Shown here piece after piece: positions 2,823 to 46,781 of a stretch of DNA of 64,000 nt. The stretch lies in assembly GCF_032163395.1 (NCBI RefSeq), contig NZ_CP119968.1, forward strand, positions 2,630,001-2,694,000. Reading direction: 5' to 3'. A program made the translations under genes and the position numbers. The stretch's first letter is position 1, and every line of letters begins with the position of its first letter. Under the pieces are notes generated by a model. It did no database searches, was not told where the DNA came from, and was given only the letters and a program-made list of their open reading frames with translations. The stretch comes from Gloeocapsopsis dulcis. Its GTDB lineage: Bacteria; Cyanobacteriota; Cyanobacteriia; Cyanobacteriales; Chroococcidiopsidaceae.

Positions 2823-2987
2823 ATGACAACTGTAACCCAAATGAAGTGTGCCTGTGAAAATTGCTTGTGTATTGTTTCTTTAGAAGACGCCATTCAACAA
2901 GATGGTAAGCCATATTGCAGTGAAGCCTGCGCCAATGGTCATACAAGTGGTTCAGGTTGCGGTCACAGTGGTTGTGGATGCAGCTAG
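2823..2987 (+). CDS. smtA: Cyanobacterial metallothionein (SmtA/BmtA type)
   Basis: This is a 54-residue protein with ribosome site TAGGAG at 2811-2816. It has nine Cys (9, 11, 14, 16, 32, 36, 46, 51, 53) and two His (40, 48). The N-terminal MKCACENCLC and the zinc-finger-like centre GKPYCSEACANGH are hallmarks of bacterial metallothioneins, which sequester Zn, Cd or Cu in a four-metal cluster in the cytoplasm. The C-terminal SGCGHSGCGC is usual. The gene is monocistronic, flanked by an SmtB-type operator (2774-2787) and an intrinsic terminator (3025-3063). It should be induced by excess zinc or cadmium. Confidence 0.95.
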   Translation: MTTVTQMKCACENCLCIVSLEDAIQQDGKPYCSEACANGHTSGSGCGHSGCGCS

Positions 2988-3024
2988 GATTCAATTTATT
3001 AATCAAGCATTGTAAAGTCATCAG

Positions 3025-3063
3025 GAGTAGGAAAGAAAAAATGTTCCTACTCTTCGGTTTTTA
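3025..3063 (+). terminator. Intrinsic terminator of the metallothionein gene
   Basis: A perfect 9-bp stem, GAGTAGGAA (3025-3033) with TTCCTACTC (3044-3052), is followed by TTCGGTTTTTATAGG. It is 38 bp after the metallothionein stop codon. Confidence 0.85.
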
Positions 3064-3100
3064 TAGGCTTCTATATCAAGCGAGTAAAAAATGCTAATCG

Positions 3101-3883
3101 CTATTTTGAGTTTTTTACATATAAGAATCTATAGCCCACATCCAACTGATTTAGTTGCTTAAAGTGCCCATATTTTGCATTCCATTGACCACTATTTAAA
3201 TCGGCTTGAAGAAGATTTATTCCTTTTTGAACTGCAGCAGGATTAGCTAGCGCAAAAGCTGACATACTTGTTCTAACTTGAGGATTTAAATAGGCTTCAG
3301 GCTGTCTCCAGCCTGCGGCTAAAAACATATCTGATAAATTTGGTGGTAGCATGAAGGAATAAATATTAACTACTCCTTGAGTAATTTCTTTAAGAACAGA
3401 TATGACATCTTTTAAAGATGAAAAGACTTGTTTATCATACTCTCGAATAAAAGGGAAATACTCATACAACCAAAAGTTTTCGCCTGCGATAGGGTCAAAA
3501 GTAAGAATAATAATTTCTTTTTTAGCAATCCGGTTCATCTCGCGAAAGGCTTTTTTTAGCTCAGAAAAATGGTGAATTGCTAGAAGACAAACAACAGCAT
3601 CTACTGCACAATCAGGTAAAGGAATCGCCTCAGCATAATCGCTAAGCCACTGCACTCGTGGATGTGGTGTAGCTTGCGATCGCATCACGGCTGAAGGTTC
3701 AACCGCATAAAGATTGAATCCGCGTTCAGCAAGCATCCTACTATAGCCACCTGTTCCTGCACCAATATCAGCAATAACACTTCCTGGATGCAACGCGAGC
3801 AACTGCAGTACAGAATCGACTATACGAACATCTGGAAGGCGAGAGTGAGCATACGATTGACCGATCGCATCATAGATAGGCAT
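3101..3883 (-). CDS. Class I SAM-dependent methyltransferase
   Basis: The protein has 260 residues with a Rossmann methyltransferase core. Motif I is VIADIGAGTGGYSRMLAERG (about 35-54), followed by the acidic strand end YAVEPS, then VQWLSDYAEAIPLPDCAVDAVVCLLAIHHF (motifs II/III), typical of Methyltransf_11. The C-terminal third (about 160-260) is helical and shows no recognised substrate domain. Small-molecule methylation is likely, but the substrate cannot be told. It stands alone between the metallothionein and metH, on the opposite strand. Confidence 0.85.
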   Translation of the reverse strand: MPIYDAIGQSYAHSRLPDVRIVDSVLQLLALHPGSVIADIGAGTGGYSRMLAERGFNLYAVEPSAVMRSQATPHPRVQWLSDYAEAIPLPDCAVDAVVCLLAIHHFSELKKAFREMNRIAKKEIIILTFDPIAGENFWLYEYFPFIREYDKQVFSSLKDVISVLKEITQGVVNIYSFMLPPNLSDMFLAAGWRQPEAYLNPQVRTSMSAFALANPAAVQKGINLLQADLNSGQWNAKYGHFKQLNQLDVGYRFLYVKNSK

Positions 3884-4043
3884 GATGGGTTTTTGTAGGA
3901 CATGAGGTAATAAAAGGTAATTATTTCGCTGCGATCGCCCCCTATTGCTCGAAAATTTTGCAAAATATATAGAAGTTGAATATTCTTAACTTAATTTTCA
4001 GCAATTAGACAGTAGTTCCGTCACTGCTAGCGATAATTTATAT

Positions 4044-7000
4044 ATGAACAGCCCTTTTCTGACTCGCCTCCACAGTTCTGATCGCCCCGTCATCGTCTTT
4101 GATGGCGCAATGGGAACAAACCTGCAAACCCAAAATCTCAGTGCAGCAGACTTTGGGGGAGCACAGTATGAAGGGTGTAATGAGTATTTAGTTCATACCA
4201 AGCCGGAAGCTGTTGCCAAGGTACATCGCGACTTTTTGGCAGCAGGTGCCGATGTTATTGAGACTGACACCTTTGGCGCTGCATCAATTGTCTTAGCCGA
4301 GTATGATTTAGCCGACCAAGCTTATTACTTAAACAAAAAAGCCGCAGAACTGGCAAAGCAAGTCACCGCAGAATTCTCTACCCTAGAAAAGCCCCGTTTT
4401 GTTGCAGGTTCGATGGGACCCACAACTAAACTACCAACGCTGAGACATATTGACTTTGACACGATGCAAGCTACTTTTGCCGAACAAGCAGAGGGACTAT
4501 ATGACGGTGGAGTTGATTTATTTATTGTTGAGACGTGTCAGGACGTACTGCAAATTAAAGCAGCATTAAATGCAGTCGAGTCAGTGTTTCAACGCAAGGG
4601 AGAACGACGCCCTTTAATGGTATCGGTGACAATGGAAACGACTGGCACGATGCTGGTAGGTTCCGATATCGGTGCAGTGTTGACAATTTTAGAGCCGTAT
4701 CCAATTGATATTCTCGGTCTAAACTGCGCTACAGGTCCAGACCGGATGGCAGAACACATTAAGTATCTTTCGCAGCATTCACCGTTTGTCGTTTCTTGTA
4801 TTCCGAATGCAGGGCTACCAGAGAACGTAGGGGGTCAAGCGCACTATCGACTTACACCGCTGGAATTGCGTATGGCGCTAATGCATTTCATCGAGGATTT
4901 GGGCGTGCAGGTGATTGGTGGCTGTTGCGGTACGCGTCCGGATCACATTCAACAATTAGCAGAAATTGCCGCAATGCTGAAGCCGAAAGAACGGCATCCT
5001 AGCTATGAGCCAGCAGCAGCATCAATTTACAGTGCGCAACCCTATGACCAGGATAATTCATTCCTAATTGTCGGCGAACGATTAAATGCGAGTGGTTCCA
5101 AGAAGTGCCGCGAATTACTGAATGCGGAGGATTGGGATGGACTCGTGTCAATGGCAAAGGCACAGGTGAGAGAAGGCGCACACGTTTTGGATGTCAATGT
5201 GGACTATGTGGGGCGTGATGGGGTGCGGGATATGCACGAATTGGTATCCCGTTTGGTAACGAATGTCACGCTGCCGTTAATGCTCGACTCCACTGAGTGG
5301 GAGAAGATGGAGGCAGGGTTAAAAGTTGCTGGTGGTAAATGTTTGCTCAACTCGACAAACTACGAGGATGGAGAACCACGTTTCTTTAAGGTATTGGAGT
5401 TAGCGAAACAGTATGGTGCGGGTGTAGTTGTTGGCACCATCGATGAAGATGGGATGGCGCGAACTGCAGAAAAGAAATTTGAAATTGCCCAACGTGCCTA
5501 CAATCAAGCTGTCAAACATGGTATTCCACCAGAAGAAATCTTTTTTGATACCTTAGCGCTACCAATCTCGACAGGAATTGAAGAAGATCGCGCCAATGGT
5601 AAGGCAACAATTGAATCGATCCGTCGCATTAGAGAAGAATTACCAGGTTGTCATGTGATTCTAGGCGTTTCCAATGTTTCTTTTGGTTTAAACCCCGCAG
5701 CGCGTGTAGTGCTAAACTCAATGTTTCTCAACGAGGCAATGACGGCGGGAATGGATGCGGCAATTGTCAGTGCTAGTAAAATATTGCCCTTAGCTAAAAT
5801 TGAGCCAGAACACCAGGAACTCTGCCGCAAGTTGATTTATGATGAGCGGCAATTTGATGGAGATATTTGTGTTTACGATCCGTTGGCAAAATTGACAACA
5901 CTGTTTGAAGGCGCAACAACTAAACGCGATCGCACAATTGATGAAAGTATTCCTATCGAAGAACGTCTCAAACGTCACATCATCGACGGCGAACGGATTG
6001 GCTTAGAAGAACAACTCCAAAAAGCCTTAGAAAAATATGCACCATTGGATATCATCAACAACTTCTTACTCGATGGCATGAAAGTTGTCGGTGAATTGTT
6101 CGGTTCTGGGCAAATGCAGCTACCTTTTGTGTTGCAATCGGCGGAGACGATGAAAGCAGCCGTGGCTTATCTAGAACCACTGATGGAAAAGCAAGAAAGC
6201 GGTAATAACTCTAAAGGTACTGTAGTCATTGCCACTGTGAAAGGTGATGTCCACGATATCGGTAAAAATCTTGTCGATATCATTTTGTCAAATAACGGCT
6301 ACAAGGTCGTTAACCTCGGTATCAAACAACCAGTAGAAAACATTATTGATGCCTATGAAGCACATAAAGCAGATTGTATTGCGATGAGTGGGCTATTAGT
6401 GAAGTCTACTGCTTTCATGAAGGAAAACTTGGAAGTATTTAACCAACGGGGAATTACGGTTCCTGTGATTTTGGGTGGTGCAGCACTGACTCCTAAATTT
6501 GTCTATGAGGATTGCCAGCAAACATACAAAGGACATGTAGTTTACGGGAAAGATGCCTTTTCTGACTTGCATTTCATGGATAAGTTAATGCCAGCCAAGT
6601 CGCAAGGTAACTGGGACAATTTTCAAGGCTTTTTGGATGGATTAGCTGAAAATCGTCAAGTATCCAAAAATGGGCATCAAGAACCCTCTGTAGAAAGTCC
6701 CTCACCCCTTACCCCTCACCCCTCGCCCCTCCCTATTGATACGCGCCGTTCTGAAGCCGTAGCAGTCGATATTGAGCGTCCTACACCGCCTTTTTGGGGA
6801 ACAAAGATACTGCAGCCGGAAGATATTGCTTGGGAAGAGTTATTCTGGCACTTGGATTTACAGGCTTTGATTGCGGGACAGTGGCAGTTTCGTAAACCAA
6901 AAGAGCAGTCGAAGGAAGAATATCAAGCTTTCTTGGTAGAGAAGGTCTATCCGATTTTAGAGCAGTGGAAGCAGCGAATCGTTGCGGAGAAGTTGTTACA

Positions 7001-34329: not shown

Positions 34330-34866
34330 GTGCAGAATGTTTGGTTGCGTCCAATTACTTTAGAAGATGCAGATGCAGTTCAACGTTGTGCCTCAGATGC
34401 AAAACTTGCTGCGACTTGCAACGTTCCACATCCATATCCATTGAACGGGGGTCAGCAATTTGCTGAACGATCTATTCGTGCTCGTGAACAGAAGCAACGT
34501 TTTCCCCATGCAATCGTTTGTAATGACCAATTTGTTGGAGTGATTGGTATCAATTTGCCAGACTTTTCAAACCTTACCGCAGAGGTGGATTACTGGTTAG
34601 CTGTTCCGTTCTGGGGGCGCGGCATCATGACTCAAGCAGTCGGTTTAGTTGTTGAGATAGCATTTCAAGAGCTTGGTTTTCGACATTTATTCAGCAGTTG
34701 CTGGGCTGAAAATCCTGCTTCATGTCGTGTGTTGGAAAAGAACGGCTTCCGTAAGATTCAGAGTGTGCTCAATGATGGTCATTTTGGGCAGAAGTTTTTA
34801 GGTCAAACGATTCATCGATTTAGGTTGTCGTATGAGGAATGGTTGAACCGCGCCAAAGCCAGCTAA
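34330..34866 (+). CDS. GNAT N-acetyltransferase, RimJ/RimL-like
   Basis: The protein has 178 residues from a GTG start, opening VWLRPITLEDADAVQRCASD. The acetyl-CoA loop is VPFWGRGIMTQAVGLVVEIAFQELGFRHLFSSCWAENPASCRVLEKNGFRK, typical of the RimJ/RimL branch that acetylates protein N-termini or small amines. GNAT genes are frequent cassette cargo. Here the stop codon TAA (34864-34866) falls inside AGCTAAC, the start of a candidate attC (34861-34944), so the gene may be a solitary cassette. Confidence 0.85.
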   Translation: MQNVWLRPITLEDADAVQRCASDAKLAATCNVPHPYPLNGGQQFAERSIRAREQKQRFPHAIVCNDQFVGVIGINLPDFSNLTAEVDYWLAVPFWGRGIMTQAVGLVVEIAFQELGFRHLFSSCWAENPASCRVLEKNGFRKIQSVLNDGHFGQKFLGQTIHRFRLSYEEWLNRAKAS

Positions 34867-34944
34867 CAAGTCGATGGAGCGGACGAATGAGAGATACTGG
34901 TTAAGTGCAAAGCCATCTGTCGCCGCTTATCTTTGCCGTTGGAT
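34861..34944 (+). other. Candidate solitary attC site
   Basis: It begins AGCTAAC (including the GNAT stop codon) and ends GTTGGAT, 84 bp in all, close to the 86-87 bp of the three sites in the integron. The arms AACAAGTCGATGGAGCGGAC and the complement of GCCGCTTATCTTTGCCGTT partly match (AAC...GAT...AGCGG). The pairing is weaker than in the other sites, and the last bases also encode part of the next GNAT fragment. Confidence 0.45.
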
Positions 34945-35397: not shown

Positions 35398-36684
35398 ATG
35401 CTGCCAGCAAACCGAGCAGAGGCAATGATTTTAGATTTGGTGCAACCCCTAGACGGAAAGCGCAATGGTGAGGTTGTAACACTTTTAACAGCAATTGACC
35501 GCATCCTGGCAGCACCAGTTGTGAGTCAGTTGGATTTTCCTCATTGGGATAATTCAGCAATGGATGGTTATGCTGTACGTTATGAAGATGTCAAAACCAG
35601 TCACGCTGAGCAACCTGTAGCTTTAGAAATTGTAGAAGAAGTCCGCGCCGGGCAAGCACCGCAGCGCGAGATCAAACCAGGACAAGCTGCACGCATTTTC
35701 ACAGGTGGAATCATGCCCTCAGGAACCGATACTGTGGTGATGCAAGAACACACCAAACGCGAGGGCGATCGCGTCTTTGTTTTCACAGCACCACCAGAAG
35801 AAAAAGCCTTTGTCCGCCAGGGGGCATCGTTTTATCAAGCAGGAACGCCACTTTTATTGCCTGGAATTGCGTTACAACCTCCAGAACTGGCAGTGCTAGC
35901 AGCAGCACAGTGTACGCAAATTAAAGTTTATCGCCGACCACAAGTGGCAATTTTGTCTACTGGCGACGAATTAATTACTCCCGATCAGCCCTTACAACTT
36001 GGTCAAATTGTTGATTCCAATCAATATGCTTTAGCCGCACTTGTCGCACAGACAGGAGCAGAACCTTTGCATTTGGGAATTTTCCCTGATAAACCTCATA
36101 TTTTAAGAAGAGCAATTTCACAGGCGATCGCCACTGCTGATGTTGTTCTTTCCTCTGGTGGAGTTTCTGTTGGTGATTATGACTACGTAGAGCAAATTTT
36201 GGCGGAGTTAGGAGCGACAATTCATATTCGTGCTGTAGCTGTTAAACCAGGTAAACCCTTGACATTTGCCACATTTCCTGCTTCTGCTGCTTCTAAGCAT
36301 AAACCAGTGTTGTATTTTGGATTACCTGGCAATCCGGTTTCTGCTTTAGTCAGTTTTTGGCGATTTGTACAACCAGCATTACGCAAGCTTTCTGGACTAG
36401 CACATAGTTGGGGTCCGATGTTTGTCCAAGCGCGCTCGCAGCACGATCTCAACTCTGATGGTCAGCGCGAAACTTATCTTTGGGGACAATTACACTTAAT
36501 TGATGGTTGCTACGAGTTTCACTTAGCCGATGGTAGCCACAGTTCAGGAAACTTAATTAACCTAGCCCAAACTAATGGCTTAGCAGTTATGCCAATCGGT
36601 CAACCCGCGATCGCTAAAGGTGAAACAATCCAAGTTTTACAAGTCGGTACACCCTTAATTCCGCTAGCCCATAGTCAACTTTAA
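35398..36684 (+). CDS. moeA: Molybdopterin molybdenumtransferase
   Basis: MoeA inserts molybdenum into adenylylated molybdopterin. The protein has 428 residues and all domains are present: DFPHWDNSAMDGYAVRYED, FTGGIMPSGTDTVVMQEHT, STGDELITPDQPLQLGQIVDSNQY, SSGGVSVGDYDYVEQIL, KPGKPLTFA and GLPGNPVSALVSFWRFV, followed by a C-terminal beta domain. The length is slightly longer than E. coli MoeA (411). It stands alone; no other molybdenum cofactor gene is in the window. A hairpin-rich 390-bp stretch follows. Confidence 0.96.
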   Translation: MLPANRAEAMILDLVQPLDGKRNGEVVTLLTAIDRILAAPVVSQLDFPHWDNSAMDGYAVRYEDVKTSHAEQPVALEIVEEVRAGQAPQREIKPGQAARIFTGGIMPSGTDTVVMQEHTKREGDRVFVFTAPPEEKAFVRQGASFYQAGTPLLLPGIALQPPELAVLAAAQCTQIKVYRRPQVAILSTGDELITPDQPLQLGQIVDSNQYALAALVAQTGAEPLHLGIFPDKPHILRRAISQAIATADVVLSSGGVSVGDYDYVEQILAELGATIHIRAVAVKPGKPLTFATFPASAASKHKPVLYFGLPGNPVSALVSFWRFVQPALRKLSGLAHSWGPMFVQARSQHDLNSDGQRETYLWGQLHLIDGCYEFHLADGSHSSGNLINLAQTNGLAVMPIGQPAIAKGETIQVLQVGTPLIPLAHSQL

Positions 36685-37074
36685 TTCCCGCAACGCATAG
36701 TTGTAAAAAGGACAAGTTTCTAGCTATGCTTGTTGTTCGCTGTTTAATTCAATAGCTATTAAGCCGTTAGCTGTTAGCCGAAATGCTGAGTTAATCTTTA
36801 ACGGGAGATTGTACTCACCGTACGGTTGATAAAGGGGACGGATGTCCCGTCCCCAACAACCTCTAAACATATTCCGTTAAAAATCTTTGATTTTAACGGG
36901 GGTCTTAAACCCAAAGCTAATAGCCAATAGCTAGTAGCTTCTCGATCAACTAAACTTCGCTATCCGCAGGGTACAAAAATTACTCGGACATAGGGATGTC
37001 AAGACAACTCCAACACAGATTTCTCAACCGTCCGTTTCATTGACTTGATTATTTTCGCATTTAATCGATTTCTT
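36685..37074. repeat. Hairpin-rich intergenic repeat
   Basis: Two hairpins are clear: GGGGACGG-ATGTC-CCGTCCCC (36834-36854) and CCGTTAAAAATC-TTT-GATTTTAACGG (36874-36899). The word TTTAACGGG appears again at about 36797-36805, so the block is bounded by related words in a partly palindromic arrangement, like a degraded miniature element. Flanks contain short words (TAGCTATT, GTTAGCTGTTAGC) common in this genome's spacers. No gene. Confidence 0.5.
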
Positions 37075-37791
37075 TCATGGTGGGAGCATATCACGCAATC
37101 TCGCTACCATTTCTGTCCGAGCAGAAACTTCTAATTTCCGAAACATACGCTTTAAGGCTTGTTTGACAGAATTCTGAGTGATCCATAACTCTGCGCCAAT
37201 CTCTGCATTAGTTAATCCTTTAGCAACAAGATTAGCAATTTGAACTTCTCTAGGGGTGAGGCGCTTAAAAAGTGGGTTTGGAACCACTGATAGTTGGTGT
37301 CGCAACTCAGCAAGACGTGCGGAAAAATGCGTACAAACCGCGCCTAAACTAGCCAAATCAAGTTGACTGAATGCGGGTGTATTACTAGTACGAGCAAAGT
37401 TCACTGTGCCGATCAACTGACCTTGCCCAATGATGGGTCCAGTCATAATATGCTCATGATCATATGCAGCGCAGCACCTTTTGTACAACTGGCTCTGTTT
37501 CCAAGTTCCTTTTGGCAAAACTAACTCTTCGTGGGCTGGAGCATGATACCGCATAACATACCACAGGACTAGATCAACAGATTTGCCTACTTGTTGATAT
37601 CGCTCAATGAACGCATCTGGAACTCCCTTGACATCAACGCTGGCTAAGCTATCTTCCGTGTCTAAAAGATAAATTCCCCAACGTTGCACCCCAAAGTATT
37701 CGCTGATGCTATCCATGAACCTGAATCGTAATGTCTGTTCAGTTGGTGCAGTAGCGATCGCCTGAAATAAACGGTGAAGAGAATAATCCAT
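37075..37791 (-). CDS. LuxR-type transcriptional regulator with GAF-like sensor domain
   Basis: The protein has 238 residues from ATG 37791 (MDYSLHRLFQAIATAPTEQTLR); an upstream start would add 22 residues. The N-terminal GAF-like domain (20-160) includes YFGVQRWGIYLLDTED and PIIGQGQLIGTVNFARTSN. The C-terminal LuxR helix-turn-helix is LTPREVQIANLVAKGLTNAEIGAELWITQNSVKQALKRMFRKLEV. It is divergent from the DJ-1/PfpI gene at 37884 with 92 bp between starts, so it may control that gene. Confidence 0.88.
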   Translation of the reverse strand: MDYSLHRLFQAIATAPTEQTLRFRFMDSISEYFGVQRWGIYLLDTEDSLASVDVKGVPDAFIERYQQVGKSVDLVLWYVMRYHAPAHEELVLPKGTWKQSQLYKRCCAAYDHEHIMTGPIIGQGQLIGTVNFARTSNTPAFSQLDLASLGAVCTHFSARLAELRHQLSVVPNPLFKRLTPREVQIANLVAKGLTNAEIGAELWITQNSVKQALKRMFRKLEVSARTEMVARLRDMLPP

Positions 37792-37883
37792 GCGTTGAAA
37801 GTGTACCCACCTGAGGACTATGCGCGTTAACGGACTCTGCCTACAATCGTTCCACAATAGGAAATCTTAATCAAGTGTAAACT

Positions 37884-38585
37884 ATGACTCAACTACAAAT
37901 CGGCTTTCTAATTTATCCAGGTGTTATTCAACTCGACGTGATGGGAGCATATCAGGTTCTAGTATTTCCACCTAATACACAAGTGCATTTGATCTGGAAA
38001 ACACTAACCCCGATTGTCAGTAATGAAGGATTGACCTTTGTTCCAACCGTAACGTTTGCCGATTGTCCACCTCTAGATGTAATTTGTGTTCCTGGCGGTG
38101 GTATTGGACAAGTCGCAGTTATGAAAGATGCTGAAATCTTGTCCTTCCTGCAACAACAGTCTATATCCGCTCAATACGTGACTAGCGTATGTACAGGTTC
38201 AATGATCTTGGCGGCAGCTGGTTTACTGCAAGGTTACAAAGCAACCTGTCATTGGGCATTTCGAGATCAACTGGCAATGCTGGGAGTTGAAGTTATTCCT
38301 CAACGGGTGGTAATTGATCGCAATCGAGTAACGGGGGCTGGTGTCACATCGGGGATTGATTTTGGCTTAACGCTATTGGGATTGCTTTGTGGTGAACAGG
38401 TAGCAAAGATGGCTCAATTGATGATGGAATACACACCTGAACCACCTTTCAATGCAGGCAAACCAGAAACAGTAGGCAAGGAAATCGTGCGACCATTTAT
38501 GCAGTTTGGTAAACCGCTTCTCGATGCATTTCTAGCCCAAACAAGAGAAACGGCGGCTCAATTAAAACTAGAAACCGATTTTTAA
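37884..38585 (+). CDS. DJ-1/PfpI family protein (isonitrile hydratase-like)
   Basis: The protein has 233 residues with a class I glutamine amidotransferase-like fold: QIGFLIYPGVIQLDVMGAYQVL, then VICVPGGGIGQVAVM. The nucleophile elbow is YVTSVCTGSMILAAAGLLQGYKATCHWAF, with the conserved Cys and a downstream His. The isonitrile hydratase subgroup (InhA of Pseudomonas) has this layout; regulators and peptidases share it too. Divergent from the LuxR gene. Its 3' end faces the far end of the integron cassette array. Confidence 0.85.
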   Translation: MTQLQIGFLIYPGVIQLDVMGAYQVLVFPPNTQVHLIWKTLTPIVSNEGLTFVPTVTFADCPPLDVICVPGGGIGQVAVMKDAEILSFLQQQSISAQYVTSVCTGSMILAAAGLLQGYKATCHWAFRDQLAMLGVEVIPQRVVIDRNRVTGAGVTSGIDFGLTLLGLLCGEQVAKMAQLMMEYTPEPPFNAGKPETVGKEIVRPFMQFGKPLLDAFLAQTRETAAQLKLETDF

Positions 38586-38637
38586 GGCTGTGTCTCACCG
38601 ATAATCTTCAGGCTGTGCCCCTACCGATAACTCAGCA

Positions 38638-38723
38638 AGATAACGGTGAAGTGTAGCGGCAGTGGTTAACCATCAACTCCCTACATATGCCTTTCGTCTG
38701 TCCGCTGCCACGCAGTGTTAGCT
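38638..38723 (-). other. attC site A (end of cassette array)
   Basis: 86 bp, read on the minus strand from AGCTAAC to GTTATCT. Outer arms: TAACACTGCGTGGCAGCGG and the complement of CCGCTACACTTCACCGTTA pair with a few mismatches, with unpaired G and A in the left arm. Its core ends differ from RYYYAAC and GTTRRRY by one base each. The last cassette gene (stop at 38742) ends 18 bp before it. Confidence 0.75.
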
Positions 38724-38741
38724 GGCGACCAGAGAACCAAC

Positions 38742-39162
<421 letters not shown>

Positions 39163-39191
<29 letters not shown>

Positions 39192-39378
39192 GTAGCACTT
39201 TTAACATCGTATCTGCTGCCTCAACTGCATCATAGGGCGACCACACCGGGTAAGATTGCTCAGCTTTAATTAGATCCGTTTCCTGCTGAGCTAGTTCCGA
39301 AATCAGGAGTTGCATAATGTAGAACTTGTCTGAACGACTCAGCCCCTTCAATGTTGAGATTAACTCTGATGAAACCAT
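39163..39378 (-). CDS. Small protein paired with the aspartic protease, unknown
   Basis: The protein has 71 residues from MVSSELISTLKGLSRSDKF; a start 18 bp earlier is possible. Helical N-terminal half with IMQLLISELAQQETDLIKAEQ, then SYPVWSPYDAVEAADTMLKVL. It overlaps the protease gene by 29 bp, so the two are probably made together, perhaps as protein and processing enzyme, or in an antitoxin-like relation. No DNA-binding fold is evident. Function unknown. Confidence 0.7.
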
Positions 39379-39460
39379 GTCAATCACTCCGGTCAAGCCA
39401 GATTTATCCTTCTATTCTAATTGCCCTAGTGCACCTCTGAACCTATCTTGGTTGACGGCT

Positions 39461-40066
39461 CTACCTGCACAAATGATTAGTACTTTCTAAAAATTTCCAG
39501 ATCGGTCGATCGTTCCAAATCTGGGCCTCGATGAATCTGTCATATCGCCAGTACTCTTCAGTTTTCCATTTATCACCTGGCATTCCGTATTTTTGAACAA
39601 CCTCAACGATTTCTTCCAAAGTAAACACCTGCCCGTGAATTGGTTTCCGGCATAAGTCGCCCCGTCCAGTAGTGTCTGTAGCGATCGCTAGACTTGGCAT
39701 ACTGTCAGGGTAGGTGAACGAAATCATATCACTGTTAAACAAAGACAACGGAATCTGCAACTTAGCTGGGTTCGCATCGCTGAAAAAGCCGTTCTTTTGA
39801 AAAAAGTCGTCATTCTCGCCCAATACAAAATAGAGCGGACTTTGAAGATATGGTTTCTTACCTTTCCTCACAAACTCACTGTAGAGCCACGCTTCGACTC
39901 TTCGACGTTCTTCAAGATAACCAGGATGCAACCATGCCCGTTTGCCACTCTCTTTGAGGGTAGATAGAAATTGCTCAGCCATCTCATCGGGATAGCTACA
40001 AATATTTTTTAAACGATCGCTGCCCTTGCTGTAGTAATGCGTGATGTAGTCTGGTATCTCGCACAT
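39461..40066 (-). CDS. Unknown protein, integron cassette gene
   Basis: The protein has 201 residues from MCEIPDYITHYYSKG; a start 21 bp earlier exists. It contains RAWLHPGYLEERRRVEAWLYSEFVRKGKKP, then YFVLGENDDFF, SMISFTYPDS-like ending SFTYPDSMPSL and HGQVFTLEEIVEVVQKYGMP. Proteins with the ITHYY start and SFTYPDS motif recur as hypothetical proteins in diverse bacteria; activity unknown. First gene of cassette 3, directly after attC B. Confidence 0.75.
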   Translation of the reverse strand: MCEIPDYITHYYSKGSDRLKNICSYPDEMAEQFLSTLKESGKRAWLHPGYLEERRRVEAWLYSEFVRKGKKPYLQSPLYFVLGENDDFFQKNGFFSDANPAKLQIPLSLFNSDMISFTYPDSMPSLAIATDTTGRGDLCRKPIHGQVFTLEEIVEVVQKYGMPGDKWKTEEYWRYDRFIEAQIWNDRPIWKFLESTNHLCR

Positions 40067-40157
40067 CCATCTTTGTCCTTCATGCAAGCGTGCTTCAACA
40101 TTGTAAGCAAATCAACCAACTACTTTCAAACTACTGCCACCACTCGTAACCGAAGCC

Positions 40158-40244
40158 AGCTGACGGTTCTGCTCACCGGACGCAGATAACTTTTGCTCCC
40201 CACTCAGAAATCAACTTCGTTCCGGTGCAGCGGGATTGTTAGGC
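40158..40244 (-). other. attC site B
   Basis: 87 bp on the minus strand, beginning GCCTAAC (perfect RYYYAAC, containing the stop TAA of the preceding gene) and ending GTCAGCT. Left arm ATCCCGCTGCACCGGA pairs with GTCCGGTGAGCAGAACCG of the right arm, leaving an unpaired G (GCTGCACC versus GCTCACC). The central spacer is about 40 bp. Confidence 0.85.
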
Positions 40245-41348
40245 GGTAGCTACATCTGCAAACAATTCCTGAATCATTTCAGCTACTTCCTGAATCCTGC
40301 CTTGAAATATGTTTATATTACTTTCCCGCATGTTACTGAGGATCTTCAGTAAAGCTCTCTTCTCGCATATTTGTCTGTAATAGCATTCAAATGACTCGAG
40401 GTGAGCAAATGCACCATTCATCTCTTTGCGAAATATATAAAACACAATTGCTTTTTCAATCATGTCTCTAAGCTTTTCATCTTCAATAAATGTGTGCATA
40501 ATGAGCACCAAGTAGCTAAAAGTAACTTCATATCTGATGTATGGATAAAGACGCAGCATTAAGCAAATCAGCAGAATGTCAGAGATTTGTGCTACATAAG
40601 AATACAAAGTAACTAAAAATACTTTAGCTTCAGGTTGACCTGCCATAAGTTGAGTATATCCTGGTGCAGATGCATTATGGATCTCAATTTTTCTACGAAG
40701 TGAGACGCCATCTTCACTGAAGCTATTAAATACTATTCTGTTGCGGACATAAGGTTCCAGTTGGTTTTCGATATCCTCAAAAGTATCGAAGTCTTCACAA
40801 AATGAATCTTGATCCTCGTATTTTTTCTTGAATATACTCGATATGAAATTCATAAAGAATTCACTAAGCAATTCGCGATGTTCTTGTTCATTTTCAATTG
40901 CCAGTAATTGAATAGGTAATATATAAAAAATAAGTTGGTAGTTCTCCAGAACTTTAATGGTATCAATCAGTAAGCGCCGAAAAAGATTTACACACTCACC
41001 TGTGTCAATTGATCCTTCGGGAATCCTGAAGAAATGCTCTATCTTTAAAAAGGGATCATGTAAGAGATGGAAATCACCAAGTGATTTAAAATAGAAATGC
41101 TCATTTTCAGAAACGTTTAGGTAGGTCGCTCCACTCAACAAAAAGCATACATTGTGTTCCGTTAAGCCTTCAAGTTCTAAGTCAATAATATCAAGTCTTT
41201 CCATCCAAAAATACTTAACCTCATCCATGAACAGCGAGATTTGCATTGCTGTTAATTCGTTGACATTATAACTATTTGAAAACTGGGCAACTAGTTTATG
41301 ATATTCTGATTGAAACCGTTGGATATGTTGAATAGTTGGTTGAGGCAT
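40239..41348 (-). CDS. Unknown 369-residue protein, integron cassette gene
   Basis: Starts MPQPTIQHIQRFQSEYHKL, mostly helical and rich in Phe, Tyr, Leu and Glu. It contains YNVNELTAMQISLFMDEVKYFWMERLDII and a hydrophobic stretch near 250-285 (YSYVAQISDILLICLMLRLYPYIRYEVTF) that could be one or two membrane helices or a buried core. No recognised domain. Its stop codon lies within attC B. It follows the 486-residue gene by 9 bp, and the two form one cassette; both are probably needed for one function. Confidence 0.75.
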   Translation of the reverse strand: MPQPTIQHIQRFQSEYHKLVAQFSNSYNVNELTAMQISLFMDEVKYFWMERLDIIDLELEGLTEHNVCFLLSGATYLNVSENEHFYFKSLGDFHLLHDPFLKIEHFFRIPEGSIDTGECVNLFRRLLIDTIKVLENYQLIFYILPIQLLAIENEQEHRELLSEFFMNFISSIFKKKYEDQDSFCEDFDTFEDIENQLEPYVRNRIVFNSFSEDGVSLRRKIEIHNASAPGYTQLMAGQPEAKVFLVTLYSYVAQISDILLICLMLRLYPYIRYEVTFSYLVLIMHTFIEDEKLRDMIEKAIVFYIFRKEMNGAFAHLESFECYYRQICEKRALLKILSNMRESNINIFQGRIQEVAEMIQELFADVATA

Positions 41349-41357
41349 TCGCGTGAC

Positions 41358-42818
41358 CTAATCCAATATCATTAATGTTTCTGGAATTTCATAGTTTTGT
41401 TTTAGCAAGTCAAGCAACCTCATCATAATGCTGCGACAATCTGCCTTCACGTCAGGCAAGTTCTGAACGCCAAATATGTCTGGAACAATATGGTACTGAT
41501 GGCTTGCATTATTACATTTGAGCATTGATGTTTCTCTAATCGCTCCCCACAAACCATGAGCAAAACTTGAATCATAATCGTAGAATAGGTCGAAAAGATA
41601 TTTTTCTCCGACTTCTATACTCTTTTCTCTGATCCCCTGTTTGTCGAAATACTTTAAATCAACGTCGATAAACTCTTCCCATTTGATCTCATTCACTAAC
41701 ATATCCACTAATGGTGGAACAAAATGAGCTGATTCTTCTAGTTCATTTTCCCTAGCCTTCAATAAAACAAGCTTATACTTGCTGATTCCATACAACTTGT
41801 ACTCTTCCCATATTTTTGGATGGTCGTTTTCCCGTTTCAATAAATACTTCAGGATAATTAAAATCTCAATGATCGTTCTTATTGCATATCGCCCTAGAAT
41901 TCCGTTTCCTAAATTATTATCATAGATTTCAGAGAACAACCTCAGCGCATAAGTTATTGAACCAATAATAACGTCAAACCTGTCATCTAGAAGCGACTCT
42001 GTTTTATAAGAATTAGTGACGTATTCTAATACTTTCCGGTATTGTTCAATAAATGGTTGATAGTTAAATGTATTTTCATCATGCATAATTCGTGTAGGGT
42101 TACATCGCGTAATCATTCCAATCTTTTTCCAAAACTCCGAGGTGAATTCGCCATCCTCATTCTCTCCGAATGAACCTTCCATAGCCCTAATGGTTGGCCG
42201 ATACATTTTCATCCTTTCATCATCATGACTAGTGTAGGGATAGATTGAAAGTGCTTCAAGTGCATTTGGGGCATCTTTTGATATATGAATTCTTCCAGCA
42301 AAAATATGAAGTTCCAGCGTTAAAAAGCGTAAATCTGTAGCTTCATTAGATTGATGAGGGGAATAAATCTCAATAGCATTAGTGAGTTGCTTTAGTCTTA
42401 CTTCAAAATTGATTTCTGGAACATTGAAGGCTTCATTAAACTGTGGATAGTCCCTAGCTCGATATAAAACTGTTAAAGGAGATAAGACAAAAGGCTCTAC
42501 TTGCTCCAAAATGATTTGAAAAACAGATGCTTGTTCGTCATAAGGCAACTCAAGTATTTGTGACAATTTAGGCTTTGATAAATTTTGAATTTGTGTGGAA
42601 ATATTATTTAGGATTGCTCCTGCTTTTTGAAATCCCTCTTCTCTCCTATACTCCATAAGAATTAAGCCTAACCACAAATACTCTGGCATCCGTTCTTTCG
42701 CCCATGAACTCAATCTCAATTGATCGCCAAGACTATCATTTATAGGACTGATTACTCTTCCTTGTCGGCGATGCAGTTTATGGTCGCTGAGACTGCTGAC
42801 GTTCTTTTCGCTTGTCAT
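41358..42818 (-). CDS. Unknown 486-residue protein, possibly DUF5677-like, integron cassette gene
   Basis: An all-helical protein from MTSEKNVSSLSDHKLHRRQGR. The second half has RTIIEILIILKYLLKRENDHPKIWEEYKLYGISKYKLV, then an acidic region and YLFDLFYDYDSSFAHGLWGAIRE. This arrangement (E...LKYLL, K..Y..YG..K, then a late SxxxHG-like motif) recalls DUF5677, a HEPN-like helical family, but the match is by eye only. First gene of cassette 2, 167 bp after attC C, followed in 9 bp by the 369-residue gene. Confidence 0.72.
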   Translation of the reverse strand: MTSEKNVSSLSDHKLHRRQGRVISPINDSLGDQLRLSSWAKERMPEYLWLGLILMEYRREEGFQKAGAILNNISTQIQNLSKPKLSQILELPYDEQASVFQIILEQVEPFVLSPLTVLYRARDYPQFNEAFNVPEINFEVRLKQLTNAIEIYSPHQSNEATDLRFLTLELHIFAGRIHISKDAPNALEALSIYPYTSHDDERMKMYRPTIRAMEGSFGENEDGEFTSEFWKKIGMITRCNPTRIMHDENTFNYQPFIEQYRKVLEYVTNSYKTESLLDDRFDVIIGSITYALRLFSEIYDNNLGNGILGRYAIRTIIEILIILKYLLKRENDHPKIWEEYKLYGISKYKLVLLKARENELEESAHFVPPLVDMLVNEIKWEEFIDVDLKYFDKQGIREKSIEVGEKYLFDLFYDYDSSFAHGLWGAIRETSMLKCNNASHQYHIVPDIFGVQNLPDVKADCRSIMMRLLDLLKQNYEIPETLMILD

Positions 42819-42985
42819 AAGTTAATTTCTTTATTCAAAACTCCAATTGGGAATGGCATAATTTCAATTCTATGTCTATCGTTCAGTTATCAAACCACGC
42901 CCTCGATTTCTTTGACCCATCGGTCTTACGCTTTTGCTAGGTGAGCGGGAACTTTCTCACTTAGAAGGTTTTGTTACAATAGCCC

Positions 42986-43072
42986 GCCTAACGGTACGGT
43001 TCAGGGGTGGTAGATAGCTTTTGCCATCCCACCAATGACTTTCGACCATCCGCTGCAACCGAATTGTTATGC
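42986..43072 (-). other. attC site C
   Basis: 87 bp on the minus strand, from GCATAAC (containing the stop TAA of the preceding gene) to a perfect GTTAGGC. Left arm TAACAATTCGGTTGCAGCGG and the complement of CCCCTGAACCGTACCGTTA align with an unpaired G (GGTTGCAG versus GGTTCAG), the extrahelical base typical of attC. Confidence 0.88.
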
Positions 43073-43725
43073 CGCCGCAATTAACGACTTCATATCTGAA
43101 TAATAAGATTCATAATTTCTCCATTCAAGAAGTGCTGTAATATTGCTAGAAAAATTGATTAACACTTCATTCTCTAAATCAAATGCTGGATCTCCAAGAG
43201 ATTGTTCTGTAGCACCAGTGTAATTGTGTGCAAGGAAATTGAAGATAGTTTTGCTTGGTTCTCTAAGTTCTTCATTATCCATATGATTGAACTGATTACG
43301 ACCAGCATAGATTATTAGACCTATAGGCAAGTGGCGAACCCTGCGCCCTATGCAGAACTTGACAGACTTACTTTTAGGTTTTATCGATGAACGTAGAGCT
43401 TCAGGTAAATCTTCAGGTATCTCTTCGTTCCCAGAAAACCATTAGAACCCCATTGCAGCAATTTGAAGCAAGGAACCACATAATGTGGCAAGTGCAAAAC
43501 TTTCTACGGAGAACTCCCTCTGTGCTTTGAATGATGATTGGATTGCATCTCTATTTACAGCCACCCAATTCTTATAAGCAGGTTTTTGGTTTAAAGTATC
43601 ACCAGCATTGCCTAAGTATATGGGCGGCGTGCATCGCGTAAGATCTTGAGATATAAATCAATCCCATCAAAAATTTTGATTACCGCACTTTCTGTTCGTT
43701 TAATATATTCTTCTGCTGAGTTCAT
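43067..43725 (-). pseudogene. Unknown cassette gene, disrupted
   Basis: Reads from ATG 43725 (MNSAEEYIKRTESAVIKIFD). One frameshift is near 43625-43630 (DAR then YLGNAGDTLNQKPAYKNWV), then VESFALATLCGSLLQIAAMGF and an ochre stop (43445-43447), then WFSGNEEIPEDLPEALRSS and RHLPIGLIIYAGRNQFNHMD to SLIAAA. The last stop is inside attC C. About 218 residues if repaired. The ancestral family is not recognised. It starts 21 bp after the gene at 43747 and so belongs to the same cassette. Confidence 0.75.
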
Positions 43726-43746
43726 TATGAAAACTGTTTATACTGA

Positions 43747-44475
43747 TTATTTCGCATTAGGGCATAAATATTTGTGAGCGCCATTGTAAATTACATTGGT
43801 GTTCTGTGTGTTACTGAATGACTTTATTTTATCTTCTACAGCTTGTTTATATCCCAGTGCATAGATCTCGCTACACGCGCCATACCCAGCTACAAGCATT
43901 GTTGCATCGGGCTTTTGATGAAACTCAGCATTCACATTTTGGGTATCAAAGCCTTGTTGCCTGATATCAGACAGGTAACTTTTAGGAGCTTCAAGAGGGA
44001 TAGAAACTTGAACACCTTTGTCAGGGCAACTATATAAATTGGCAAGAGCGTATACTGTAACCAAATTAAGCGAGAGTTCGTCCACTATGCTTATTGCTGA
44101 TGGTTCTTCAAGAAGTCGTTGTAACTGACTAGCAATAGAGGCAAAAATTTGCTCCTCTTTCGTAACACTGGTTTTCAGTTCACAATACTTATCCGCCATA
44201 TCTAGAACATCTTGATTAGTTTGCGGCGATTTCTTTTTCTCTGGAAAAACCTTATAAAATCCTTCAACTAATTTTGCTTGAGTTTCACGTTTTGGGCTGC
44301 GATCAGCCATAATTTCTCTGAAGGGACTCCAGTTTTCGCGCTTCATTGTTACTGGATCGTATACCTGAATTATGTCACCACAACCACGAAAGAAAAAGAT
44401 TCCTCCGAAAATCAGGACAAAACCCAGAATGCCTCCAATTTTTTCTCTCCACATAGTTGCAACCAAGCTCTTCAA
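43747..44475 (-). CDS. Unknown single-pass membrane protein, first cassette gene
   Basis: The protein has 242 residues. One membrane helix is near the N-terminus (IGGILGFVLIFGGIFFFRGC, about 13-32) and a large soluble domain follows. This has CELKTSVTKEEQIFASIASQLQRLLEEPSAIS and the late CPDKGVQVSIPLEAP plus ATMLVAGYGACSEIYALGYKQAVEDKI. Five Cys (YSC, YGAC, YLC and others) could form disulphides outside the cytoplasm. Family not recognised. It is the integrase-proximal gene of the array and so is the most likely to be transcribed from a cassette promoter. Confidence 0.72.
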   Translation of the reverse strand: MKSLVATMWREKIGGILGFVLIFGGIFFFRGCGDIIQVYDPVTMKRENWSPFREIMADRSPKRETQAKLVEGFYKVFPEKKKSPQTNQDVLDMADKYCELKTSVTKEEQIFASIASQLQRLLEEPSAISIVDELSLNLVTVYALANLYSCPDKGVQVSIPLEAPKSYLSDIRQQGFDTQNVNAEFHQKPDATMLVAGYGACSEIYALGYKQAVEDKIKSFSNTQNTNVIYNGAHKYLCPNAK

Positions 44476-44610
44476 GATCTAGATTGCCCATTAGCTTACC
44501 TACAGACCTCACTCTTAGCGATCCGGACTATCTCAGCAGCACCTCTGAGGTTAGCTTGACTTTGACACCAACAGATTCGATGGTGGTTGCGCCCCTACCA
44601 AGGACTAGCA

Positions 44611-44640
44611 GCATAACTATTTATTATACGGAAAGGTTCC
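44611..44640 (-). other. Candidate attI recombination site
   Basis: On the minus strand GTTATGC (44617-44611) matches the core at the end of the attC sites and lies between intI and the first cassette gene. Directly beside it is an inverted copy (TATTATACGGAAAGGTTCC, 44622-44640) of the repeats found before intI, an arrangement reminiscent of the extra integrase sites DR1 and DR2 of attI1. Crossover position is inferred. Confidence 0.5.
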
Positions 44641-44702
44641 ATGTAATCTTTTTCTAGATAGAGATATATAAGCATGAGAGCACTTTCCTGTTAGAATACA
44701 CA

Positions 44703-44876
44703 GAAATTTTCTTGAAAATAACCCTAATTGGATATTATCCAGACTTTTTCCGTATAATCACCCTTAATGGGAGGATTATATAGAATTCTTCTGTATATCC
44801 CTTAGTGATATATAGAATTTTTCCGTATAACATCCTGATTAAGATTATTAAACGGAATTTTTCTATATAACACCCT
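44703..44876. repeat. Five tandem repeats of a TTTTTCCGTATAA motif before intI
   Basis: Copies start near 44703, 44742, 44783, 44814 and 44855. Core versions include GACTTTTTCCGTATAATCAC, GAATTCTTCTGTATATCCCT, GAATTTTTCCGTATAACATC and GAATTTTTCTATATAACACC. Spacing is 39, 41, 31 and 41 bp. They end exactly at the intI start codon. They could be binding sites for the integrase or a repressor, or parts of attI. Confidence 0.7.
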
Positions 44877-45843
44877 ATGGAACAGCGTCCAAAAAAGCTG
44901 CTTGAACAAGTACAAGATGCGATTCGTCTTAAGCACTATTCTTACCAAACAGAAAAGACTTATATTTACTGGATTAGACGCTATATCCTTTTTCATAATA
45001 AACGCCATCCGAAGGATATGGGAAGTGCTGAAATTGAAGCATTTTTAACGCATCTTGCGGTTCATGAAAATGTGGCGGCATCAACGCAAAATCAAGCACT
45101 TCATTCTGTTTTATTTTTATACCGAGAAGTATTAAAACAAGATTTAGATTTAAAGGTTGATGCAGTACGTGCAAAGAAATCTAAATATTTACCAACAGTT
45201 CTGACAAAAGATGAAGTTTTCGCAACTATCCAACAATTATCGGGTGTACATCAACTTTTAATTAAATTACTTTACGGTACAGGGCTACGATTAAATGAAG
45301 GATTGAGCTTAAGAGTTAAAGATATTGATTTTGCTCAAAATCAAATTACAGTACGCGATACAAAAGGTAATGAAAGTCGGGTGACTATGTTACCAGAAAG
45401 TATTGCTGAAGAATTAAAAAGTCATTTACAAAGTGTAAAAATTTTACATCAACAAGATTTACAAAAAGGCTATGGTTCGGTTTATTTACCTTTTGCATTA
45501 GAAAGAAAATATCCCAGAGCGAAGTACGATTGGATTTGGCAGTTTGTTTTTCCTTCGAGTAGCATCTCTAGAGACCCGCGTAGTGGAGAAGTTCATCGCC
45601 ATTATTTACACGAGAGTAGTTTACAAAAAGCCCTCAACCAAGCAGTTCGTCAAGCAGGTATTCAAAAAAAAGGTTAGTTGTCATACCTTTCGCCACAGTT
45701 TCGCTACCTACTTACTCCAAAACGGCTATGACATCCGCACGGTACAGGAATTACTTGGACACAAGAATGTCAAAACAACGATGATTTATACCCATGTACT
45801 CAACCGTGGTGGTAAGGCTGTTCGTAGCCCACTTGATTTGTAA
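44877..45843 (+). pseudogene. intI: Integron integrase (tyrosine recombinase), frameshifted at A8
   Basis: Restoring one base gives 321 residues; IntI1 has 337. Residues 1-264 read [21 protein letters not shown], then the SAM-like domain. The IntI-specific extra domain is [18 protein letters not shown] and [16 protein letters not shown]. The run of eight A at 45664-45671 breaks the frame after GIQKK; with seven A the reading goes on [23 protein letters not shown] and [13 protein letters not shown]. Catalytic residues R138, K163, H269, R272, H295 and Y304 equal IntI1 positions minus 8. Cassette excision and insertion at attI and attC is its job. It is inactive unless slippage or a sequencing error is involved. 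Confidence 0.93.
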
Positions 45844-45908
45844 AGAGTCGGTTGACGTTTATGAACAACTGAATTTTCCCACTCAGTAAAAATTTTGCAC
45901 TTCACGTT

Positions 45909-46781
45909 TTACAAATACTTCTGCAATAACAAATGTAATTTCTCTTTTGTCGCTGCAGGTGCTTGATCGAGTCGAGTCAAAATTGCATATTTTAATGCTG
46001 AGTGCGCTTCTGATAACGGTGGATTCTGACTCAAGCGCCTTACAGTTTCTTGAATGACTTTTTGGGCATTCGTTGCATTGCGTTGCAAGTTAGCAATCAC
46101 CATTTCCACCGTAACGCTGTCATGGTCTGGATGCCAACAGTCGTAATCTGTCACGAGTGCTAATGTCGCGTAGGCGATTTCTGCTTCGCGTGCTAATTTT
46201 GCTTCAGGTAAATTTGTCATCCCAATGACAGTAGCACCCCAGCTACGGTAAAGATGCGATTCGGCTTTGGTAGAAAATGCCGGACCTTCCATACACACAT
46301 AAGTTCCGCCACGATGTAAGGTTACATCAGGTAAGTTGAGAGTAGCGATCGCATCTGCCAAAATTCCTGCAAGCTGATGACAAACTGGGTCGCCAAAAGA
46401 AATATGCGCCACAATTCCTGCGCCAAAAAATGTCGAAATTCGGTTCTTTGTCCGATCAATAAATTGATCCGGTACTACCATATCAAGAGGCTTGACTTCT
46501 TCTTTAAGCGAACCAACAGCAGAAGCAGAAATTAAGTACTCGACTCCCAGCTGCTTCATCGCATAGATATTTGCACGAAAAGGTAGTTCCGATGGCAGCA
46601 AAGTATGATTGCGACCGTGACGCGCTAAAAAAGCAACTCTTGTTTCCTCTAAAGTTCCTAATCTTACTGCATCTGAAGGCGAACCAAAGGGTGTAGATAT
46701 CTGTACTTCTTTAACATCTTTAAGCGCATCCATGTTATATAGACCGCTACCACCAATAATCCCGATTTGAGCTTGAGCCAT
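45909..46781 (-). CDS. mtnP: S-methyl-5'-thioadenosine phosphorylase
   Basis: It cleaves methylthioadenosine, a by-product of polyamine synthesis, with phosphate and returns sulphur to methionine. The protein has 290 residues: [15 protein letters not shown] (phosphate loop), [48 protein letters not shown] and [32 protein letters not shown]. The SNxMP-type motif is MTNLPEA. It lies next to the integron but is a normal chromosomal gene. Confidence 0.95.

Follow-up and report, generated by a model that had tools for sequence, protein, structure and literature searches.

A probable Aditi anti-phage system in a two-gene integron cassette of the cyanobacterium Gloeocapsopsis dulcis

Introduction

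What do two large, closely spaced genes encode when they share a single integron cassette in a cyanobacterium, and does the pair travel as a unit? The question is raised by a 64,000-nucleotide stretch of Gloeocapsopsis dulcis DNA (NCBI RefSeq assembly GCF_032163395.1, contig NZ_CP119968.1, positions 2,630,001 to 2,694,000), referred to below as the window. An initial annotation of this stretch described genes of 486 and 369 residues, 9 bp apart, in one cassette of about 2.8 kb between attC sites; the open reading frames (ORFs) are exactly as it gave them, and the cassette measures 2,828 bp (Table 1). It regarded the pair as unknown, yet profile models of the PADLOC database identify the two proteins as DitA and DitB, which we take to make up, together, the Aditi anti-phage system (the names are those of the models). 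The system is reportedly attributable to Millman et al. 2022. As far as sequence can tell, the genes almost certainly form a complete Aditi system, and the cassette that holds them is very probably a genuine one bounded by attC sites. Taken as a whole, the reading presented here, namely a complete Aditi system carried as a two-gene cyanobacterial integron cassette and acting through a DitA effector, is given a probability of about 0.7, with the proposed mechanism as its weakest step.

Identity of the gene pair

In a PADLOC profile search, residues 7-483 of DitA align to positions 3-479 of the 486 in model PDLC03826, and residues 7-365 of DitB to positions 7-356 of the 361 in PDLC03827. A DitA and a DitB homologue, each of near full length, thus lie side by side on the minus strand, the composition by which an Aditi system is recognised. 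Nothing that counts against this identity turned up, and a putative anti-phage role of this copy is supported by homology and context. The resemblance of the first protein to the DUF5677 family, pointed out in the initial annotation, is borne out by Pfam (60.9 bits against a curated cut-off of 27.1); for DitA the accompanying statement, that both proteins lack a clear domain, does not hold, and both proteins have near full-length PADLOC matches. DitA resembles DUF5677 proteins (PF18928) in that residues 282-437 exceed the family cut-off, whereas the other match in the genome (27.7 bits, locus L002) is a frame of 303 amino acids (aa), too short for the 486-aa layout of DitA.

DitB of the window has no Pfam match up to an E-value of 10, neither protein matches an NCBIfam family, and a sequence search of the PDB returned nothing for DitB and one chance-level match for DitA (E 0.51). 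Three weaker resemblances were dismissed: a Csm2 match of DitB (PADLOC, E 0.005) and a PsbP_2 match in one DitB (E 0.0081) as chance or too weak, and a DUF547 match in three of ten DitB proteins (best E 0.0016) as falling below the curated cut-off. A housekeeping function, named in the initial annotation as the result that would overturn its view, is rejected as well, since neither Pfam nor NCBIfam gives a housekeeping family and no match occurs in the 18 other family genomes or the 291 other phylum genomes. DitA was found in one of 19 family genomes and DitB in one of 292 sampled phylum genomes, the window's own in both cases, in scans that reach only what their models or patterns detect.

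Relatives and gene order

Ten DitAB loci were compared, consisting of the window, two plasmids and seven genome loci. Among 72,556 plasmid records searched at the protein level, two contain DitA, and DitB was found in one of those two by the same kind of search. The seven genome loci come from a single scan of low sensitivity, in which 84,980 species genomes were searched with two short peptide patterns and seven DitA loci were recognised among 155 pattern-matching stretches. They belong to Cohnella, three Streptococcus species, an Enterococcus, an unclassified member of the Bacillota and a contig binned as Bdellovibrionales, that is, six Bacillota and one other. One search of phage records and one scan of viral contigs gave no DitA relative.

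DitB lies directly downstream of DitA at all ten loci, in the same order, the two genes overlapping by up to 26 bp or standing up to 9 bp apart. The PADLOC DitB model matches the partner in each of the nine other records (E 7.0e-124 to 7.5e-65). The first locally built DitB profile included two of the tested partners, chosen by position; the PADLOC test and a further DitB profile, built without the Streptococcus and Enterococcus group, avoid this circularity and give the same result. The further profile recovers all five members of that group (worst E 8.8e-28).

Defence genes accompany the pair in Streptococcus entericus (L009:6815-9676), where a type I specificity subunit lies next to DitAB together with a 477-aa protein that matches prokaryotic Argonaute (pAgo) models (E 1.1e-40). 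Among ten neighbours from five loci scanned singly, three match PADLOC at 1e-10 and seven do not; across eight loci, type I specificity models are matched by six of 60 neighbouring proteins. The proposal that such a paired-gene cassette may carry an interacting defence system is therefore backed by the DitA and DitB models, the constant adjacency and the S. entericus neighbours, and the suggested look for the pair beside defence genes elsewhere succeeded at this one locus.

The cassette and its attC sites

An integron integrase cuts after the G of the consensus GTTRRRY, and the cassette is delimited here by the corresponding cut points of two attC sites (Table 1). Both flanking sites have the same orientation and carry R'' and R' boxes; the automatic pattern scan caught only the one at 42986-43072, and the off-consensus second site, at 40158-40244, which the scan missed, can be aligned with the other sites. 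The stop codon of DitB falls inside the R'' box of the cassette's own attC. Only one detected attC separates the integrase from DitA, and DitAB is therefore read as the second cassette from the integrase. Fold energy by itself backs only the site at 42986-43072 among the three of the array. The guanine plus cytosine (G+C) fraction is 0.366 in DitA and 0.352 in DitB, compared with 0.419 for the window and with 0.462 and 0.436 for two nearby genes that, judged by their sequences, we take to be moeA and MTAP. Within window positions 36500-46500, Rfam gave nothing above any gathering score and five sub-threshold matches.

Table 1. Features of the DitAB cassette and its surroundings; positions are those of the window, and R2 denotes the second covariance model described in the text
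Feature	Positions	Strand	Description
DitA	41358..42818	-	486 aa, first gene of the pair assigned to Aditi; PADLOC PDLC03826, E 4.3e-177
DUF5677 domain of DitA	41508..41975	-	Residues 282-437; Pfam PF18928, E 2.1e-16
DitB	40239..41348	-	369 aa, second gene of the pair assigned to Aditi; PADLOC PDLC03827, E 8.7e-90
Integron gene cassette (very probable)	40164..42991	-	2,828 bp between R' cut points of two attC sites
attC upstream of DitA, belonging to preceding cassette	42986..43072	-	87 bp; R'' GCATAAC, R' GTTAGGC; fold z -2.2; R2 84.7 bits (site in model)
attC of DitAB cassette	40158..40244	-	87 bp; R'' GCCTAAC, R' GTCAGCT; read by eye; fold z -0.27; R2 80.7 bits (site in model)
attC of following cassette	38638..38723	-	86 bp; read by eye; fold z -1.1 (site plus one base); R2 70.8 bits (site in model)
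Integron integrase intI	44877..45843	+	Divergent from array; ORFs 44877-45677 and 45544-45843; TIGR02249, E 7.6e-105 for first part

The reality of these sites was assessed across the genome. A first covariance model (R1), built from the three attC sites of the window, gave 45 whole-genome matches at E<=1; in the window plus 20 stretches chosen around those matches it gave 34 matches at E<=1e-4, of which 31 had not been used in building it. Over these 34 sites, covariation reaches 0.384, against 0.152 for shuffled partners (a value as high in none of 500) and 0.056-0.092 for slid partners, and 21 pairs are changed on both sides, a number reached by 4 of 500 shuffles; the score benefits from an alignment that had been fitted to the structure. 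The attC sites of the window exceed chance. A second model (R2), derived from those 34 sites and therefore from the cyanobacterial genome only, detects at least 54 attC matches in the genome at E<=0.01, with 150 of 1152 first-look candidates scored. These 54 are scattered on contig C1 in 28 clusters of one to six, and the mean density over the genome corresponds to 0.03 expected sites per 3 kb. Matches to R2 at E<=1e-4 are present in 16 of 19 family genomes.

A second copy of the pair is linked to an attC on a 4,151-bp contig (L007) binned as Bdellovibrionales. It is the closest relative of the window's pair, with 66% identity in DitA and 59% in DitB. Its DitB ends inside an attC at 2751-2803 (R'' GCCTAAC, R' GTTAGAC; fold z -2.8), which R2, built without this site, detects at E 3.9e-6. 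Upstream, a strong hairpin lies at 48-126 (z -3.8, one strand); since R2 does not recognise it as an attC at a threshold as loose as E 10, only the downstream border of this copy is firm. The host is uncertain, as this low-coverage contig of a metagenome-assembled genome may be misbinned. Two distantly related sources of DNA thus carry DitAB as a pair of genes that runs into an attC at its end, and copies with such ends suggest, on present comparisons, a travelling cassette. Beyond the attC, the L007 contig has a different next gene (2864-4150, plus strand), a 429-codon frame with a hydrophobic N-terminus that stays open to the contig end.

Integrase, neighbouring cassettes and history of the site

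The integrase gene lies near the cassettes and diverges from the array, as in an integron, though its frame is broken at a run of eight A residues (45664-45671) and the C-terminal part continues in another frame. The integrase of a sister genome (G005) is split as well, and five other integrase matches in the G. dulcis genome are partial. The local DitB profile also matched the integrase, at 14 bits, and this match was dismissed as chance or too weak. The sister genome aligns at 90% from window position 44614 to the end of the compared stretch (50000), while 1,090 bp of its contig on the cassette side do not align; another genome (G292) aligns from 45897 outward and retains a 146-bp integrase remnant. 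Therefore, the flank on the MTAP side is common to these genomes, together with the integrase in the sister genome, and the cassette side differs. The movement of the cassette probably lies in the past: because the integrase frame is broken, present excision or insertion by this enzyme appears doubtful.

Between the integrase and the first attC, window positions 43067-44475 (minus strand) hold two ORFs of 87 and 242 aa, with no family above cut-off and no attC detected between them; a DUF732 match of the ORF at 43747-44475 was below cut-off and was dismissed. In the following cassette, overlapping ORFs of 77 and 149 aa occupy 38742-39396 (minus strand), the longer of which matches Pfam Asp_protease_2. 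The cassette of this protease-like pair also contains a 208-aa ORF (39461-40087, minus strand) that has no Pfam, NCBIfam or PADLOC match. A lone attC at 34861-34944, about 3.7 kb away from the closest site of the array, points the other way, and a plus-strand ORF of 178 aa (34330-34944) ends in it.

Other defence genes near attC sites of the genome

A joint scan of 91 proteins encoded at attC sites of this genome or close to them matched 124 PADLOC families at 1e-3, although some of these proteins are chromosomal neighbours and not cassette genes. Among the matches listed, which cover 25 of the 124 families, are mad1, PDC-M52B, PDC-S03 and a type IIG model, seen for the joint set and not traced to a gene. 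Forty of the 91 were scanned singly at 1e-8, and five matched PADLOC. Two of the five form a complete two-gene cyclic-oligonucleotide-based anti-phage signalling system (CBASS) at L048:2824-4486 (G000:C1:2206323-2207985), with a 2TM effector at 2824-3465 (E 3.5e-81) and a nucleotide cyclase at 3502-4377 (E 6.9e-101). This pair ends 23 bp before an attC (4400-4486), and no attC was found on its other side. A further match is a reverse-transcriptase-like protein (L054:10048-11019, plus strand; PDLC01136, E 2.1e-43) between attC sites of a six-site cluster; the remaining two are partial mad2 matches.

Conservation and proposed mechanism

In 44 of the 45 pairings of the ten loci, DitA shows higher conservation than DitB (mean identity 47.7% against 32.7%), pairings that are related and not independent. 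The densest run of invariant positions falls in residues 282-447 of DitA, where 53 of 166 columns are invariant, 35 of them polar, compared with 28 of 281 columns in residues 1-281; in DitB, 12 of 369 columns are invariant across the ten loci. Sensors often change fast. This pattern fits, at the level of protein comparison, a conserved effector domain in DitA combined with a faster-changing DitB, and the tight spacing or overlap of the genes suggests that the two proteins may act together.

In the mechanism proposed here, DitA and DitB would act jointly. The conserved DitA, via its polar-rich C-terminal DUF5677 domain, would serve as the effector and stop the infection, probably by damaging the infected cell or arresting it, and the faster-diverging DitB would either sense infection or restrain and aim DitA. 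This assignment of a DitA effector and a DitB sensor or regulator is tentative and has somewhat less than an even chance of being correct. A HEPN ribonuclease, for which the motif is RX4-6H, was considered for DitA and is not supported: inspection by eye of the residues invariant in ten DitA sequences found no invariant arginine five to seven residues before an invariant histidine. The context of H421 is Y-[DE]-Y-D-S-x3-H-G.

Structure prediction for both proteins, proposed in the initial annotation as a check, yielded models for both, that of DitB being fair (predicted local distance difference test, pLDDT, 79.5; predicted template modelling score, pTM, 0.77), and neither has a confident fold match. 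For DitB, Foldseek against viral models also gave none at E<=0.001.

Alternative explanations

Several observations weigh against the reading of a working, mobile Aditi cassette. The R' box of the downstream attC, GTCAGCT, deviates from the GTTRRRY consensus, and as single-stranded DNA this site folds no better than shuffled versions of itself, 80 of 200 of which fold as well; for these two reasons the cassette may no longer be able to move. In window positions 40000-45000, promoter-like sites occur at chance level (17 against 16.8 expected), which lends no support to a promoter inside the cassette. The company of defence genes is demonstrated at one relative's locus only, given that seven of the ten singly scanned neighbours have no PADLOC match at 1e-10. 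With regard to mechanism, the DitA model is poor (pLDDT 62.9, pTM 0.54), Foldseek against the PDB gives no match at E<=0.001 for either protein, and the top VIA-align Z scores of 7.8 for DitA and 5.7 for DitB provide no confident fold match, a Z under 8 being, by the tool's own statement, a value that may mean only a common arrangement. No recognised catalytic motif was seen in DitA, and the roles of sensor and effector could be swapped.

Some of these points also feature in the possibility that the cassette is dead, a former Aditi system that is now unexpressed or inactive behind a broken integrase. The broken frame, split in the sister genome too, the off-consensus R' of the cassette's own attC and the chance count of promoter-like sites are in its favour, but both frames are open and of full length, DitA at 486 aa (480-493 aa in the nine relatives) and DitB at 369 aa (350-379 aa), which makes a dead cassette unlikely. 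A toxin-antitoxin module that stabilises the array, and not an anti-phage system, is a more improbable account. Such cassettes are common in large integron arrays, and two closely spaced genes within an array would suit one; yet both proteins are large, both match defence-system models over almost their whole length, and the pair is also found on two plasmids and in six Bacillota genomes, once beside restriction and pAgo-like genes.

A different division of labour, in which the enzyme is DitB, with DitA serving as sensor or scaffold, arises from the structural comparison of DitB. Cyclodipeptide synthases, pantothenate synthetases and the tyrosyl- and tryptophanyl-tRNA synthetases (TyrRS and TrpRS) share the HUP fold, and DitB might have a related Rossmann (HUP) core like that of class-I aminoacyl-tRNA synthetases (aaRSs), akin to cyclodipeptide synthases and acting on charged tRNA or nucleotides once DitA has detected infection. 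Eleven of the 50 VIA-align matches listed for DitB are proteins of these four kinds (Z 3.8-5.7), spanning DitB from residues 7-66 to residues 308-316. They include cyclodipeptide synthases (9j61, Z 5.7, root-mean-square deviation (rmsd) 5.4, 182 aligned residues; 4q24, 3s7t, 3oqi), pantothenate synthetases (3mue, Z 5.6, rmsd 4.2, 162 aligned; 1iho, 3inn, 7tot), TyrRS (7ror, Z 5.4, rmsd 4.4, 165 aligned) and TrpRS (5tev, 3fhj). DitB also has S or T at position 75 (nine of ten) and N or D at 78 (all ten), with the spacing of Ser37 and Asn40 of the cyclodipeptide synthase AlbC (numbering counted on the AlbC sequence), which are catalytic there. However, this spacing is a short motif that was spotted only after the match was known, all Z scores of DitB are below 8, and unrelated helical proteins in the same list score alike (9ivk 5.4, 6h2f 5.2). 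The Foldseek and Pfam results for DitB given above likewise speak against such a core, and when DitB was compared by hhalign with four cyclodipeptide synthases, the probability was 0.1% (E 0.55) and the regions paired did not correspond, the profiles being shallow on both sides. A search of 146 phylum genomes found no cyclodipeptide synthase, and the controls were equally silent, which renders that search uninformative. Little credence is accordingly given to DitB as the enzyme, and the fuller version, in which Aditi would stop phage via aminoacyl-tRNA or a nucleotide upon a trigger from DitA, is a longer shot still. If true, the aaRS-like action of DitB would constitute an anti-phage mechanism undescribed in the literature examined, spread between distant bacteria as an integron cassette. 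The complete Aditi system with DitA as the putative effector remains the preferred reading.

Known systems and significance

In the literature consulted, Aditi is listed among defence-island systems with a mechanism described as unknown (PMC12926258, citing Doron et al. 2018 and Millman et al. 2022) and is named in Streptococcus suis and in an E. coli survey (PMC12813430, PMC10121019). The locus described here agrees with Aditi in both proteins, in gene order and in lengths, with DUF5677 in DitA; it differs in that the window copy is an integron cassette in a cyanobacterium, whereas the loci of the genome scan belong to six Bacillota and one Bdellovibrionales-binned contig. Anti-phage activity or a defence annotation is reported for integron cassettes of Vibrio, Xanthomonas and mobile integrons (PMC12409362, PMC12444791; Darracq, Getz, Kieffer et al. 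2025), which the G. dulcis locus resembles in that attC sites enclose a defence system close to an integrase. One of these sources describes integron-borne systems as streamlined in size, with larger systems of more than two genes absent (PMC12409362); DitA and DitB of the window are not shortened in comparison with their nine relatives. A further difference is the cyanobacterial host, in which attC sites form many short, scattered clusters and not one large array. The cyanobacterial nature of the host is borne out by seven matches in its 5.6-Mb genome to PF00421, a photosystem II family that was detected, among 14 control genomes, in Synechococcus elongatus alone. Cyanobacterial integrons are themselves known, and an attC model has been built for the phylum (PMC8352920). 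Literature searches on Aditi with integrons or defence, covering the accessible portions of the texts, recognised no integron-borne Aditi. Within that literature, both the system and the type of carrier are known, and their combination and the host group are undescribed.

The residues that are invariant in DitA and DitB across the ten loci are direct targets for mutagenesis; those of DitA include E318, H421, R428, E429 and H443. The present locus suggests that a two-gene system of 2.8 kb may travel as a single cassette without shrinking. A full-length DitAB cassette in a cyanobacterial integron, a relative that ends in an attC on a contig assigned by binning to a different phylum, and an attC after a CBASS pair in the G. 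dulcis genome suggest that the role of integrons as defence libraries, which is reported from Vibrio and mobile integrons, may hold for cyanobacteria too.

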